From: a virus
Virus record (IMG/VR): IMGVR_UViG_3300043446_000559
Location: 1-28,697 of that record
Reading direction: 5' to 3' (one strand)
DNA: 28,697 nt
The notes under the pieces are model-generated. The model did not search any database. It worked only from the letters and a program-made list of their open reading frames with translations, and was not told the origin of the DNA. A program made the position numbers and the translations under genes. Position 1 is the first letter of the stretch. Each line of letters begins with the position of its first letter. Shown here one piece after another: positions 23,637-28,697 of this stretch.

Positions 23637-25643
23637 TCATTGTGGTTGTGGCTCAGCCATTTCAGGAGCTGGCGCTTGGGATGGTGCTGTTGGTGCAGCG
23701 GGTGTGCCTTGACCTGGCATCTGTTGTGCAGCGGCTTGGAAGGCGGCTTGCTTCTCGGCCTTGTACTCCAACATTTCTGGAGTGGGCACAAGTCGGTTGG
23801 TGTCCATCTGCAAGTTGTCCGCAATCTCGCGCAAGAGATAGGCGCGGCCTTCGATGCCGACGATCTGCATGTCCACGGGGTTTGCTGTCATTTGCATGAA
23901 CTGAGCGCGAGCTTGGTTGAGTTGCTCCTTCTGGACCAGACCCAATGCACCCTTGCATGTAATCGAGAAGTCGCCCTTGATCGAGGTGTCTGGGTCGTAC
24001 ATCATGTTGTGCATGTACAGACGGCTAACCATTGCCGAGACCACCACATCAATCGAAGCGATTGCGTTCTTGATGCCCTTGGCTGCGTTGTCCATCAGCA
24101 TCGACAGACCAGAAGCTGTGCGGCCAGCTCCACCACCAGTTGCGCCAGAGTAGAGGTAGGCTGGGATGCCAGTGACCTCATCAGCTTGCTTGCTGAAATA
24201 TTGGTACACAGCCATCAGCTCTTGCGCCTTCATCTCAGGCTGGAAGAAGCGAACGGCTGGCTGGCCACCACCGGTGCGGTCGGATGTCGTTTGCCAAATC
24301 TTCCAAGGGAACATCGCTGTGACATCTTCGCCGTCAGGCAAGCGGTCAACTTGGATTTCGGCTTGGGGACCAGAGGCGATGCCCATGTTGTTTGCCAAGC
24401 TGCGAGCCGAGGCGTTGCACAGAGTCTGCACATCGCGCATTTGCTCGGGCAGGGCAGTGCCCCAAAAAGAGTTCGGCACTTCGTTCCACTGAGCAATCTC
24501 GTATGGACGCATGCCAAGCGGATCGGGGTTGAGTGCAACCTTGATGATGAATGGGCCAATCTGCCAAGCAGTGACTTCGTACTCTTTGTTCCACTCAACG
24601 CGTTTGTCTTTGAAGCCCCAATCCATCAGGGTCTTGCCAGACACAGAACCCCAAAACTCCAGAGCCTCGATGACTTCTCTGGTGTACAGGCGAGCGTGTG
24701 GCTTGCCTTCTAAGCGGTCGCGCTCTTGGTCACCCATGAGCCACTGACGAAAACCCGTTTCGCCAAAACGCTCAAGCACTTGGTCGATGGCTGAATCGCT
24801 GTAACCGGGTACGCCGCGCAGGTCTTGCAAAGCCTTGCGTGACAAACGGTGACGCTGGATGAAGAAACCTTCTTGTGGGTCAGACGCGTTGGGAGATGGA
24901 TAAGCATCATGCGGACTGACACGCTCGAACTCGCGTGAGAAGTCGTTGATGATGATTGGCTGGAAGTTCGGACCCCACTTCATTTGTTTCTTGCGACGAA
25001 CCACAGGGCCTTTCAAGATGGCGGTAGGGTAAGTCACGAAGTCGTCGATGAAGTCACGGAAGGCGGCGTCGAATCCGCCCTGACTCATTTGGTCGTCAAT
25101 CTTGTCACCCATGCGGTCGGCAGCGTTGCGAGCTTCCTCACGCATCTTGTCCATGATCTCGTCATGCACTTGCTCCATGCGAACACGGAACGCTTCGGGA
25201 TGAACTTGAGCGCCGGTGGACAAGAAGTCATTCATCTCTTGGCGGACCAGCTCAACAATCCCTGACGAAATTTCAGGCGGCATGTCTGGTTCTTCGGATG
25301 GATCGAGTTCAAAGACTCGACGACCAGAACGCAAGATCACATCCATCAACCAGCTTGCGGCAGCGCGGCACTTGATGTCCGTGATGCGCATGTAAATGTC
25401 GGAGCCGCCGGTCTTGGCGATCTCCATTTCTTTTTCTGGGTCATACACACCACGACGCTGGCGCTCGCACTTGAGCAAACGCTCGGTCAACTCTGTGCGG
25501 TTGAACTTGGCTCGTTCCCAGCATTCGCTGATGTGACGGGATAAGTCGCTCTCATACTTGATGAGCGGATCATCCTTCTGTTTGATCTTGGCATCAATCT
25601 GCAAGACCGCTGGCATATTGGTTGGTAAAGCAATCGCGTTCAT
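23637..25643 (-). CDS. Portal protein (668 aa)
   Basis: The large dodecameric portal through which DNA is packaged and ejected. Visible landmarks include an N-terminal helical region (KYESDLSRHISECWERAKFN, LLKCERQRRGVYDPEKEMEI), a clip/stem region with WLMDVILRSGRRVFELDPSE, the core DDFVTYPTAILKGPVVRRKK and VSPHDAYPSPNASDPQEGFF, and a helical crown (NNMGIASGPQAEIQVDRLPD, AYLYSGATGGGAGRTASGLS). The C-terminus is a Gln/Ala/Pro-rich tail. Length and motifs fit P22/SU10-like podovirus portals. The ATG at 25643 overlaps TerL as ATGA with AAAGGG upstream; ATG 25649 is possible. It directly follows TerL. Confidence 0.96.
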   Translation of the reverse strand: MNAIALPTNMPAVLQIDAKIKQKDDPLIKYESDLSRHISECWERAKFNRTELTERLLKCERQRRGVYDPEKEMEIAKTGGSDIYMRITDIKCRAAASWLMDVILRSGRRVFELDPSEEPDMPPEISSGIVELVRQEMNDFLSTGAQVHPEAFRVRMEQVHDEIMDKMREEARNAADRMGDKIDDQMSQGGFDAAFRDFIDDFVTYPTAILKGPVVRRKKQMKWGPNFQPIIINDFSREFERVSPHDAYPSPNASDPQEGFFIQRHRLSRKALQDLRGVPGYSDSAIDQVLERFGETGFRQWLMGDQERDRLEGKPHARLYTREVIEALEFWGSVSGKTLMDWGFKDKRVEWNKEYEVTAWQIGPFIIKVALNPDPLGMRPYEIAQWNEVPNSFWGTALPEQMRDVQTLCNASARSLANNMGIASGPQAEIQVDRLPDGEDVTAMFPWKIWQTTSDRTGGGQPAVRFFQPEMKAQELMAVYQYFSKQADEVTGIPAYLYSGATGGGAGRTASGLSMLMDNAAKGIKNAIASIDVVVSAMVSRLYMHNMMYDPDTSIKGDFSITCKGALGLVQKEQLNQARAQFMQMTANPVDMQIVGIEGRAYLLREIADNLQMDTNRLVPTPEMLEYKAEKQAAFQAAAQQMPGQGTPAAPTAPSQAPAPEMAEPQPQ

Positions 25644-27109
25644 GTCCATCCCTTTGTGGATGCATTCACGACACTTCTAGCCCTGACAGGGGAGAGTCCA
25701 TTACGAACTCGCATGCACAGGTACTGGAGCGCATCGTGAGGATGTGAAAACTGGTCCTTCACGGGACGGTCCCTGTATCGTGCGGAGCCTGATGTTTTCA
25801 GGCGCTCATATCGGTAGCGACCATTAAACCCTTTACGCAGTTGCTGGCAGCTCGGGTCAATGATGAACCCGGGGCCGCCGTCAATCATGCGTGTCAGGAA
25901 GTACGCCACCGATTCTCGGCGGGGAATCCAATCGTTGGTAGGGGCTGGCTCAGTTGGGATGCCCAACTCATACAACTCCTGCAAGCAAGTACGCTCGTCA
26001 GTCTGTGCGCGGATTTGACCAGCAGGGTCGCCTTCGCTGAATCTGGCGTAGCCGTTGTACTTGTTTGTGAGGATGGGGCGCACCACATCGGATGCGAATT
26101 GGCGGATGCCCATGTCTTCGGAAATGATTTCTTCCAAGATCATGAGTCGGCCATTGGGCGTCATCTGCCCGATGATGCAAGCTGGCGTCAGCCCGAAGTC
26201 CCAACCAAGAATGATTGGCAGACCACGCAGCGGTTGGAGCGGCTTGTCCGAGACATGCACCCGATCGTTCCACTCGGGATAGACGGGTTTGCCATCTGAT
26301 GTCGTGCCATAGTTTCCAACCAAGAACACGTTAATCCAGGTGTCGAGCTTGCCGCCGACTTGCTGGAGGTAGTAGCCGTGACCTCTTGGGAGGTTGTCAA
26401 TGTTTTCCGCTTCTGGGTTGGGTTCATAGACACCTGTCTCTTGGTTCAGGTACAAGCCACCAGGCTGACGGAAAAACTCCCAACCCTTTGGTGTGTCTAC
26501 CTCTGCGAAGTTGTAGTACCAGTGGTCATCGTCTGGAGGGTTGGTGTCGAGGATGACGCCAGCCCATGACGGACCGCCTTTGAGTTTGGAAGGGAAGCGA
26601 CCCACACGCTGGGTACACATGTCGAACACACCCTTGGCAACTTCGGATGCTTCGTTGATCCACGCTCCGGTCAATTCGAGTGAGCGCAGTTTGCCGGTGT
26701 CGGCCTCGGAGTCCAGCGCCAAGAACACAACCTCGAGGTCGAGGCTCGTGCCGTCGCCGATGTCGTTGATGATCATTCTGCTGGTGATCGGCGTGTCCCA
26801 TTTGATGGGCGCGACATTGCTTGGAAACCAAGTCTCCCAAGTCTTGATGGTGGTGGACTTGAGTTCGGGGTAGGTGTTACGGATGATGGCCCAGCGGCTT
26901 CGGCGGACGCCGTCATACCAAGGCTTTTGCTGGAGCGACCGCATCACGATTTCGACGCAGCATGAACTGGACTTGCCAGAACCGACCGGACCCATCAGCC
27001 CACGGACGAAGCCCTCGCCGTGATGAAACTTGGCGGCAACAGGACCGGGCGGAAAGTACTGAACCAGACCTTCGTCTGGCACGACTTCAACTGCGGCTTC
27101 CTCGGACAT
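25640..27109 (-). CDS. terL: Terminase large subunit (489 aa)
   Basis: The packaging motor ATPase and nuclease. The Walker A motif is GPVGSGKS (residues 40-47, K46). The Walker B region has VFLALD (128-133) and WINEASE (150-156), where E153 is the likely catalytic glutamate. The nuclease domain has LGWDFGLTPA (D304), EGDPAGQ (D361) and the C-terminal HPHDALQYL (D459), consistent with the acidic triad of TerL nucleases. At 489 residues it has typical length. It starts as TGATG over the TerS-like gene and is followed directly by the portal. It works with the preceding small gene to cut and package concatemeric DNA. Confidence 0.97.
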   Translation of the reverse strand: MSEEAAVEVVPDEGLVQYFPPGPVAAKFHHGEGFVRGLMGPVGSGKSSSCCVEIVMRSLQQKPWYDGVRRSRWAIIRNTYPELKSTTIKTWETWFPSNVAPIKWDTPITSRMIINDIGDGTSLDLEVVFLALDSEADTGKLRSLELTGAWINEASEVAKGVFDMCTQRVGRFPSKLKGGPSWAGVILDTNPPDDDHWYYNFAEVDTPKGWEFFRQPGGLYLNQETGVYEPNPEAENIDNLPRGHGYYLQQVGGKLDTWINVFLVGNYGTTSDGKPVYPEWNDRVHVSDKPLQPLRGLPIILGWDFGLTPACIIGQMTPNGRLMILEEIISEDMGIRQFASDVVRPILTNKYNGYARFSEGDPAGQIRAQTDERTCLQELYELGIPTEPAPTNDWIPRRESVAYFLTRMIDGGPGFIIDPSCQQLRKGFNGRYRYERLKTSGSARYRDRPVKDQFSHPHDALQYLCMRVRNGLSPVRARSVVNASTKGWT

Positions 27110-27348
27110 CAGGTGTTAGGAAGGTTTGAGTTGAGATTGAATGTGATGCCACCCGAACCGGTGTCGAGCTTCACATCCGACAGACTTGGCAGTGATTTAT
27201 CCAACAGGATTTTTGCCGCTTTGATCTGCGAGTCGGACATGGCCTTCTTGCCGGTCACATGGTTGTGTAGGGCGTTGATGTAGTACGCGGCCTGAATCTT
27301 GGCGCGTGTACCTTCCGTCTGTGTAAGTTTTCGAGTTCGTGCTGCCAT
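27109..27348 (-). CDS. Putative terminase small subunit-like protein (79 aa)
   Basis: From MAARTRKLTQTEGTRAKIQA, followed by AYYINALHNHVTGKKAMSDS, QIKAAKILLDKSLPSLSDVK and a short disordered end, this is a small helical basic protein immediately before TerL. The pattern R.KIQ..Y.IN.L..H..GKK.MS.SQI.AA..LLDK.LPSL is shared by many phage proteins annotated as small terminase or DNA-packaging proteins. The ATG at 27348 has AGGAAG upstream; the GTG at 27354 would add two residues and overlap the previous stop. DNA recognition in packaging is inferred from the position. Confidence 0.87.
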   Translation of the reverse strand: MAARTRKLTQTEGTRAKIQAAYYINALHNHVTGKKAMSDSQIKAAKILLDKSLPSLSDVKLDTGSGGITFNLNSNLPNT

Positions 27349-27350
27349 AG

Positions 27351-27527
27351 TCACTTCTTCCTAAGTTTGCTCAGTGTTTGAGCAAGTCGCGCTTCCTTGC
27401 CGACTTTACCTGGGAGCTGTGCCGCAGCCGCTATCTTCTTAGCTGGGATTTTCTGGTCACTCGGCACACCAAGTGCTTTGTGAAGTCCACCTTTGTTCTT
27501 GGTTGCTTTCTGAATCCAGTTGGCCAT
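27351..27527 (-). CDS. Small basic protein before terminase genes (58 aa)
   Basis: MANWIQKATKNKGGLHKALG, VPSDQKIPAKKIAAAAQLPG and KVGKEARLAQTLSKLRKK make a short, Lys-rich helical protein. Similar 'MxxWIQKAxxKxGALHxxLG...IPAxKLxxA..' proteins are common in phages, near packaging or structural genes. AAGGAG lies 7 nt before the ATG at 27527, which is why this start is chosen over a much longer in-frame extension from 27722 into structured non-coding DNA. It may bind DNA or the virion; role unknown. Confidence 0.88.
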   Translation of the reverse strand: MANWIQKATKNKGGLHKALGVPSDQKIPAKKIAAAAQLPGKVGKEARLAQTLSKLRKK

Positions 27528-27611
27528 GACAAATCTCCTTGGCCAAAATTTTGGGTGGGATTGTTGGTGGCTCCCATGAAGCAGGGTGAGGGCCGCAATT
27601 GAACACACAAA

Positions 27612-27631
27612 ACAAAAACCCCACGGGGCTA
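27612..27631 (-). terminator. Candidate intrinsic terminator upstream of packaging genes
   Basis: The minus strand reads AGCCCCGTGGGGTTTTTG: a short 5-bp stem (with one G-T pair) and CGTG loop, followed by five T and a further T-rich run. The stem is weak on its own, but a second hairpin directly precedes it. It would end transcripts from the right-hand control region before the 58-aa gene. Confidence 0.4.
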
Positions 27632-27715
27632 ATCCGTTTCCACCAACACGGATGAGGACTACCGAATTTACGGCGGCAGGTTGCGACCACCGCAGAGGTT
27701 TCAAGCCCCTGACAA
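27612..27715 (-). ncRNA. Candidate small structured RNA, C4-antisense-RNA-like
   Basis: On the minus strand, consecutive elements are a GCGG...CCGC pairing, CCG-TAAATT-CGG, a 6-bp hairpin ATCCGT/ACGGAT with a 10-nt loop (plus 27632-27653 approx.), and AGCCC-CGTG-GGGTT followed by a T-rich end (plus 27612-27631). The order 'CTGCCGCCGTAAATTCGG ... terminator' recalls phage C4 antisense RNAs (P1/P4 immunity). Resemblance is from memory; a covariance search is needed. The final hairpin could act simply as a weak terminator before the packaging genes. Confidence 0.3.
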
Positions 27716-27729
27716 TCCCCATGCGTGTA

Positions 27730-27845
27730 GGTGGCCCGTTGACGGGGGCCAGGCGGCGGAATCACCGAGCAAAGAGCTTTGAGCGAAAGGAGACCTCGGC
27801 TTCCACTGCTGGAGTTACAACCCCACAACCAGCTGGGGTCTCCGT
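27730..27845. other. GC-rich structured non-coding stretch
   Basis: TGGCCC/GGGCCA (27732-27737 and 27746-27751) enclose a loop with an inner CCCGT/ACGGG match. Further right GGAGACC and GGTCTCC (27789-27795, 27837-27843) are perfect 7-bp arms enclosing a second CCCC/GGGG stem (27821-27824, 27835-27838). No reading frame here looks like a gene. An AAAGGAG at 27785-27791 on the plus strand has no start codon after it. The density of nested stems suggests a structured RNA or leader. Confidence 0.5.
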
Positions 27846-27920
27846 GGCAACTTGGCAACCCCGGTGCATCAAGGCTAAGTGGGAATCGACAACCCTAAAA
27901 ACTCAAGCTCATTTTTTATC

Positions 27921-27936
27921 TGGCACACTTATTGCA
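27921..27936 (+). promoter_or_regulatory. Sigma-54-type promoter match
   Basis: TGGCACACTTATTGCA fits the -24/-12 consensus TGGCACR-N4-TTGCW at every specified position, with correct GG-GC spacing. It is in non-coding DNA and points right, into the repeat cluster. TTGCAA at its end can also serve as a -35 box with TAAGAT 18 nt later. No activator-binding site is recognised, and phage use of sigma-54 is unusual, so this is a motif-based call only. Confidence 0.35.
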
Positions 27937-27946
27937 AAATAAGATA

Positions 27947-27971
27947 ACCAATAGATAAGATAACCATAGGT
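27947..27971 (+). repeat. Direct repeat copy 1 (ACCAATAG...AGATAACCATAGGT)
   Basis: ACCAATAG, a 3-nt spacer and AGATAACCATAGGT. A matching copy with a 4-nt spacer lies about 100 bp to the right. An additional AAGATAACCAAT begins at 27941, and an inverted copy (ATTGGTTATCTT) ends at 28005. Candidate repressor-binding or iteron element. Confidence 0.8.
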
Positions 27972-28005
27972 AGTAAGGTATACCTTACTAACCATTGGTT
28001 ATCTT
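27957..28005. promoter_or_regulatory. 49-nt near-perfect dyad with a 20-bp perfect palindromic core
   Basis: The core TAGTAAGGTATACCTTACTA (27971-27990) is its own reverse complement. The arms extend outward with AAGATAACC (27957-27965) opposite GGTTATCTT (27997-28005), interrupted by a small bulge. There is no T-run, so it is not a standard terminator. It resembles an operator, a cruciform site or a replication-control element. Confidence 0.75.
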
Positions 28006-28026
28006 CTTAACCGGTTTACTTGTACA

Positions 28027-28043
28027 AGGTTCTGAAAGAACCT
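28027..28043. promoter_or_regulatory. Small hairpin AGGTTCT-GAA-AGAACCT
   Basis: Perfect 7-bp arms around a 3-nt loop, between the two direct-repeat copies. TTGTAC (28022-28027) and TATACC (28043-28048) flank it with about 15 nt between, a weak possible promoter geometry. Function unknown. Confidence 0.45.
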
Positions 28044-28045
28044 AT

Positions 28046-28071
28046 ACCAATAGCTTTAGATAACCATAGGT
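28046..28071 (+). repeat. Direct repeat copy 2 (ACCAATAG...AGATAACCATAGGT)
   Basis: Matches copy 1 except for the spacer (CTTT). The 14-mer AGATAACCATAGGT starts exactly 100 bp after its first copy (27958 and 28058). A further AAACCAATG follows at 28080. Same-face spacing of about ten helical turns would suit co-operative protein binding or DNA looping. Confidence 0.8.
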
Positions 28072-28091
28072 GTAGAAGTAAACCAATGAAC

Positions 28092-28116
28092 ATCCTTCTT
28101 CGTACCTCAGAAGGAT
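28092..28116 (-). promoter_or_regulatory. Hairpin just after the 86-aa gene
   Basis: ATCCTTCT and AGAAGGAT form an 8-bp perfect stem with a 9-nt loop directly after the stop of the 86-aa gene. No T-tract follows on the minus strand, so it may stabilise or weakly terminate that transcript rather than act as a full intrinsic terminator. Confidence 0.5.
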
Positions 28117-28118
28117 AT

Positions 28119-28379
28119 TCACTGCCTTGGAATTGCTCTGCTTGCAGCGGCAAAGCTCTTGAGCAGTTGACCAGCTAGCTTCATCAAGTCTTGCTCACCA
28201 CCAAACTCCAGCAAATCCAAGTCAGTCTCGAACGCATGCGGTTCGCCATAGATCATGACCAGCCCATGCAAGCGCACCAAGTGCGGAGCCATCACCAATT
28301 CCGATCTCGGTTCAACCAAAATTTCTCGTAACGGCTCAAACCTGCGCAAGTAGGTCTGTACATCATCAGCTTTCAACAT
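28119..28379 (-). CDS. Unknown small protein, isolated gene (86 aa)
   Basis: MLKADDVQTYLRRFEPLREI, LVEPRSELVMAPHLVRLHGL, VMIYGEPHAFETDLDLLEFG and a basic C-terminal helix (LLKSFAAASRAIPRQ). I do not recognise the family. AAAGGAG lies 6 nt before the ATG at 28379, an excellent ribosome site. It stands alone between two repeat-rich control regions, separated by about 590 bp from the packaging genes, so it is probably under its own control and may belong to an earlier transcription unit. A regulatory role is possible but unproven. Confidence 0.85.
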   Translation of the reverse strand: MLKADDVQTYLRRFEPLREILVEPRSELVMAPHLVRLHGLVMIYGEPHAFETDLDLLEFGGEQDLMKLAGQLLKSFAAASRAIPRQ

Positions 28380-28418
28380 AGAACTCTCCTTTCAAAAAAA
28401 ATTTTCAATGGGAGTTGC

Positions 28419-28636
28419 TATACCCCCTACAACCTTTTGAATGGTCCGGGTAGGGGGTGTGTACCACCCAACCGTTTTCACCCCCGCCATGACCTTATTT
28501 TTGCGGTTACTAAGCGTCTATGGTTTGGGATTGGAAGTGAAATTAAAAAAAGGTTGAAGGTCGTGTGTGTTGGACCATACGTCTGGAGGCTCATACCCCC
28601 CGTCTTACCAGCTAATGGCCAGGTACACCCCCACTA
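28419..28636. repeat. Recurrent TA(C)ACCCCC motif, five copies
   Basis: Copies lie at 28419-28430 (TATACCCCCTAC), 28450-28463 (inverted, GTAGGGGGTGTGTA), 28477-28488 (TTCACCCCCGCC), 28591-28604 (TCATACCCCCCGTC) and 28623-28636 (GTACACCCCCACTA). The first two form a 9-bp inverted repeat (28422-28430 and 28450-28458) with a 19-nt loop upstream of the 86-aa gene. The rest of 28380-28697 holds no gene I can support. Candidate binding sites for a regulator. Confidence 0.55.
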
Positions 28637-28697
28637 GGCATACCAGCCTCACTCTGATTGCTAATCAGTCGGTAATCCAACTACATCAAGGCCTCTG

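Follow-up and report, generated by a model that had tools for sequence, protein, structure and literature searches.

Lambda-type OL/OR control regions consist of palindromic sites grouped around promoters, with divergent transcription and with specificities that are swapped between related phages, and operators of this kind usually recur elsewhere in the genome. In lambda, late-gene expression is also opposed by an antisense promoter of the paQ type, a sigma-70 promoter that is activated by CII. Sigma-54 promoters, on the other hand, need host RpoN together with an AAA+ activator bound upstream. A further relevant system is the put RNA of phage HK022, which is approximately 70 nt long, folds into two stem-loops and suppresses termination without a phage protein (PMC9378689). 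Here we describe an AT-rich, repeat- and palindrome-dense block of about 180 bases (27941-28118) in a phage genome, which from its sequence and that of its relatives we interpret, with moderate confidence, as a transcription-control region, i.e., a set of operators and promoters through which a phage-specific regulator would act on an RNA-led late operon and on an opposing promoter.

The DNA analysed (the window, 28,697 nucleotides) is a complete 28.7-kb IMG/VR record from an uncultured phage and, going by the size of its relatives, is probably part of a larger genome of 55-60 kb. The late genes of the window lie on the minus strand. They include TerL, the terminase large subunit (25640-27109), and a putative terminase small subunit (TerS) of 81 aa (27109-27354), which was assigned by position and had no PHROG match. 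The conserved 86-aa gene p86 (28119-28379, minus strand; stop codon at 28119-28121) has a predicted fold of AlphaFold pLDDT 90, but no match was obtained in Pfam or PHROG, nor did a fold search against the PDB return anything at E<=0.001. The repeat block fills the gap directly after p86, between this gene and the TerS/TerL packaging genes. Non-coding DNA upstream of p86 (28400-28697) is conserved in relatives, with ACGGGGGTATGAGGACTCCAGCACGTA-like and CCCCC..GTGGACC..GGGGG motifs, and is possibly a second structured leader RNA. No tRNA genes were found in the window.

One full-size relative, G007, carries an integrase, an Erf-type annealing protein, an exonuclease and a primase/helicase, so that, judged by this gene content, the lineage may be temperate. 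As the G007 integrase lies approximately 20 kb away, an attP reading was dropped. The same genome has adjacent glutamine-amidotransferase-like and amidoligase-like genes (L084:14325-16801). DNA searches of the region against named phages gave no real match, and a host search with TerL in genomes returned a single distant match, in Mariprofundus. The annotated TerL neighbourhoods of the isolates MEP301, BcepC6B, Hodr, VA-RY-3 and Y3, with which TerL is shared, contain different genes.

Inspection of the block recovered the elements listed in the original prediction. The unit AGATAACCATAGGT is present twice (27958-27971 and 28058-28071), exactly 100 bp apart, with an extended match of 27 nt at 78% between the two copies. 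The extra partial copies are also there: a third direct copy, AAGATAACCA, occupies 27941-27950, while the inverted copy at 27990-28005 reads AACCATTGGTTATCTT as given and AAGATAACCAATGGTT on the minus strand. The claimed perfect 20-bp palindrome, TAGTAAGGTATACCTTACTA (27971-27990), forms the core of a 49-nt dyad (27957-28005) that matches its own inverse at 88%. In addition, we found a central hairpin/dyad GGTTCTGAAAGAACC (28028-28042), which in many relatives is replaced by a different hairpin at the same place, a dyad AACCGGTT at 28009-28016, a further dyad GGTTTACTT/AAGTAAACC, and a hairpin at the 3' end of p86 (28084-28124, minus strand), whose stem in the relative L005 is altered in sequence with pairing kept. 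When compared with 300 dinucleotide shuffles, the block contained 20 directly repeated 8-mer positions (1.1 expected), 40 inverted 8-mer positions (2.9 expected) and a longest palindrome of 20 (7.9 expected). None of the 300 shuffles equalled it in direct repeats, inverted repeats or palindrome length, confirming that the repeats are real and far above chance.

A search with TerL yielded 80 related viral loci. The p86-TerS spacer measures 450-1600 bp in the nearest relatives, whereas p86 abuts TerS in more distant ones. Nearly every long spacer follows the same plan: going from p86 to TerS, the AT-rich palindromic block comes first, next a short conserved box and then a GC-rich structured RNA, in many cases with tRNA genes after it. 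Arrays of two to seven tRNA genes (Pro, Tyr, Asn, Trp, Thr, Ser) lie between the RNA and TerS in L005, L018, L020, L027, L030 and others. A repeat-dense AT-rich block was found at the same place in about 20 related uncultured phages, and as a rule both AT content and repeat density, taken over 200 bp, peak there within the genome. Of six full-size genomes with the RNA, five have their highest AT content over 200 bp here, and the sixth shows a tie for first place; the highest repeat density over 200 bp likewise falls on the block in five. Direct and inverted repeats exceeded those of shuffles in the blocks of all 14 relatives analysed, each with its own unit.

The units themselves vary from phage to phage: GATAACCAWWGGTT in the window, AACCWATGG in L005, GGTTACC types in L029 and L034, CTACGGATAACCGTAG in L027, GATACCGGTATC in L018 and L022, and GAGACTAGTCTC in L019. 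On the conservation of repeats that the original prediction asked to be checked, the result is split: L005, the closest distinct relative, retains the unit class AACC-WAT-GGTT, while phages further out no longer share the exact repeats. In many phages the units form two clusters, with 13-19 bp between units within a cluster and approximately 60-140 bp between clusters. Repeated 10-mer units were confined to the locus in three whole genomes and the window, being absent or present once only elsewhere. The original prediction had judged this density to be beyond a normal phage promoter and to fit an operator cluster. Both judgements fit what was observed: some 20 relatives keep the block in the same place and with the same layout but exchange the sequence of its units, as expected of operators whose regulators diverge.

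Two elements beside the block were absent from the original prediction, namely a sigma-54-like box and a structured RNA. The box, TGGCACACTTATTGCA (27921-27936, plus strand), lies on the TerL side of the block, just outside the block edge at 27940, and points into the repeats. It matches the sigma-54 (RpoN) consensus TGGCAYRNNNNTTGCW at all 12 positions in the window, and has the form TGGCAYR-N4-TTGCW with GG and GC ten bases apart. The predicted start from this box is near 27947, from which transcription would read into the repeats, antisense to p86. The box was present in 18 of 21 relatives and missing in L005, L019 and L114, L005 having a perfect TATAAT in its place and in the same orientation. 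Of the 18 loci with sequence there, 16 retained 11-12 of the 12 consensus positions, and the site was the best or joint-best sigma-54 match of the locus in 16 of 18; boxes were also seen in L121 and L112. The distance from box to RNA is 44-118 bases in 16 of the 18 loci, and the two are always on opposite strands.

Across 18 rows of box sequence, one of which (L003) was taken from the wrong site, the variable columns, namely Y, Y, R and the N4 spacer, coincide with those left free in the classical consensus YTGGCAYRN4TTGCW. By rough arithmetic, a conserved 16-mer would match at some offset on either strand with a chance of about 1 in 10^4 to 10^5. The box was recognized after the fact. No sigma-54-type phage activator was found among the proteins scanned, which were part of the protein set. 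A scan of 27000-28697 detected no sigma-70 promoters and hence none for the RNA. Among the open-access papers listed by a literature search, none offered a clear precedent for conservation of a sigma-54-type promoter within a lineage of phages.

The RNA (27730-27844, minus strand) comprises an H-type pseudoknot, a 6-bp covarying stem and a 3' hairpin. Folding of the region as a single sequence was no better than that of shuffles, and the structure therefore rests on covariation. In 14 related sequences, 15 of 26 pairs had changed on both sides, with 60 such cells as against 18.7 in shuffles, and the wobble pairs fit the minus strand. Among 19 diverse sequences, which were chosen by hand with loops trimmed by hand and so lean toward structure, pairing holds in 99.2% of cells and double changes number 65, as against 18.5 in shuffles, both pseudoknot helices included. 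A covariance model matched the window and a further 31 loci, among which are duplicate contigs as well as loci outside those used for model building. In the genomes searched whole the RNA occurs once per genome. Downstream of it in the window is a terminator-like hairpin followed by a T run (27617-27630, minus strand), which in a scan was at chance level; terminator-like hairpins also follow the RNA in L032, L010, L195, L187 and L192.

On the TerS side of the RNA, the segment 27561-27660 is 91% identical to L029/L030, with surroundings that are much less alike. On the minus strand of 27560-27725, ACACGCATGGGGATT ... AGTCCTCATCCGTGT can pair as a long stem around a variable insert, and the insert in the L029 counterpart looks tRNA-like.

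The pseudoknot pattern (GCNG...CNGC) also occurs in phages with no detectable TerL relationship, and many copies have a loop containing CUCC. Among named phages the RNA is carried by Burkholderia phage HN02, where it lies beside tRNA genes, Edwardsiella phage EPP-1, where it lies upstream of rdgC, and the Erwinia phages Ea9-2, Frozen, Rexella and Gutmeister; other carriers are L149, L154, L157, L160, L164, L170, L187, L188, L192, L195, L201 and L202. The L170 record also contains a match to the Rfam RT-15 RNA (L170:99-281, 162.7 bits). A model of the RNA (R2) found nothing in the TerL loci of MEP301, BcepC6B, Hodr, VA-RY-3 and Y3, strict filters left an uninformative zero in 299 genomes of the Mariprofundus phylum, and the Edwardsiella version had no match in E. 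coli genomes. Rfam 15 scans of the window and relatives gave no match for the RNA at gathering score, and a search of open-access papers did not turn it up. It appears to be a new family, although a description may exist beyond these two sources. The RNA lies directly between p86 and TerS in L047 and L039, with neither repeats nor box, so it may be older than the repeat block.

Taken together, these data point to the following arrangement. The palindromic units would be bound by a dimeric regulator, which the phage itself probably encodes and which has come to differ in specificity from one related phage to another, and the unit clusters would flank a central element and reach the promoter edges. 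The block would part two opposing starts, one directed toward the structured RNA, the tRNAs (in relatives), TerS/TerL and the late genes, and the other, the sigma-54-type promoter, directed the opposite way through the repeats, antisense to p86. Binding of the regulator would then select either the RNA-led late operon or the opposing transcript. The regulator, the activity of the promoters and the switching of the operon are thus predicted features, whereas the repeats and their conserved position, the box and the RNA structure were observed directly. The two clusters, the loopless palindromes and the swapping of units fit DNA-binding operators, as does the occurrence of the same palindromic site several times close to a promoter, and the position of the RNA directly downstream of the block on the other strand lends further support. 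In the three genomes and the window, however, the site does not recur at other regulated promoters. The main weakness of the control-region reading is that no regulator gene for the block was identified, nor was one shown to co-vary with the unit. Its most specific form, i.e., a host-dependent sigma-54 promoter that opposes an operon led by an undescribed, widespread phage RNA, with a rapidly swapped, phage-specific operator array between them, is put forward tentatively; host sigma-54 signals, nitrogen status for instance, would then bear on the late transcription of the phage.

The best-surviving alternative, which we nevertheless regard as unlikely, is that the repeats act as RNA, i.e., as hairpin arrays transcribed from either strand that would serve as a protein sponge or as processing or stability signals. 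The long stems fold on either strand, the central hairpin is often retained despite sequence change, the L010 block is made up mostly of short-loop hairpins, and a transcript from the sigma-54-like promoter would include the array right from its start. However, in 27 of 63 perfect dyads (43%) the spacer measures 0-2 nt, so that an RNA loop could form only if pairs were broken; such spacing suits a DNA-binding dimer better than an RNA hairpin. Direct repeats, for which RNA folding has no need, are moreover as prominent as inverted ones.

That the block is a replication origin, with the repeats as iterons for an initiator and the AT-rich part as the unwinding element, seems improbable to us. Direct and inverted repeats are present together with an AT-rich region, and the claim of an origin is supported insofar as the block is the AT peak of the genome, and also the repeat peak, each in five of the six RNA-bearing genomes noted above. 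A GC-skew extreme lies 0.3-1.1 kb from TerL in five of six genomes, the skew being weak and G001 not fitting; this extreme is, however, a maximum, by the usual rule a terminus. The origin reading is weakened because the cumulative GC-skew minimum falls 38-43 kb from TerL in five genomes, at an AT-rich site just upstream of the primase/helicase, and no initiator gene was found adjoining the block. The AT-rich site upstream of the primase/helicase, approximately 39-44 kb from TerL in G007, G002, G003, G005 and G008, carries a motif of the type GACAGATAAT...GTCTACGTTTTTT, conserved and close to the GC-skew minimum, and is itself a candidate replication origin. The originally suggested packaging site, in which the small terminase would recognize repeats next to terS, is very unlikely, since the units change completely while the TerS proteins change moderately (about 50-80% identical) and TerS is found with no repeat block in L047, L039 and the group in which p86 abuts TerS, although proximity stands, with the block within 1-2 kb of TerS/TerL in relatives that have it, and full-size contigs start at varied positions relative to TerL, as for circularly permuted genomes.

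If the control-region reading is correct, the locus would be a conserved switch in which the operator sequence is replaced from phage to phage with the architecture and the neighbouring RNA remaining fixed. It would also be an unusual case of a sigma-54-type promoter kept in a phage lineage. The RNA is a candidate family common to podophages, N4-like phages and other phages, and is testable because some of its carriers are culturable.

As a kind, the phage operator/promoter region is known; what is new here is the box, the swapping of units and the RNA, the RNA family being more novel than the repeat block. The block resembles lambda-type OL/OR in its grouped palindromic sites around promoters, its unit swapping and its predicted divergent transcription, but it differs in having no adjoining repressor gene, in its position at a late/packaging operon and in that no other operators were found in the genome. 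As with lambda paQ, the predicted box promoter reads against the late region; unlike the CII-activated sigma-70 promoter paQ, the box resembles sigma-54 sites, and its antisense activity is putative. Like GOLLD and ROOL, the RNA is structured, does not code for protein and is found in phage genomes, in this case often next to tRNA genes, whereas GOLLD and ROOL are far larger and the RNA described here is without an Rfam match (PMC12286853). Similarly to HK022 put RNA, it is a compact folded RNA near the start of an operon with terminator-like hairpins downstream, but in place of two stem-loops in approximately 70 nt it has a different structure, i.e., an H-type pseudoknot and a long stem in approximately 115 nt (PMC9378689).
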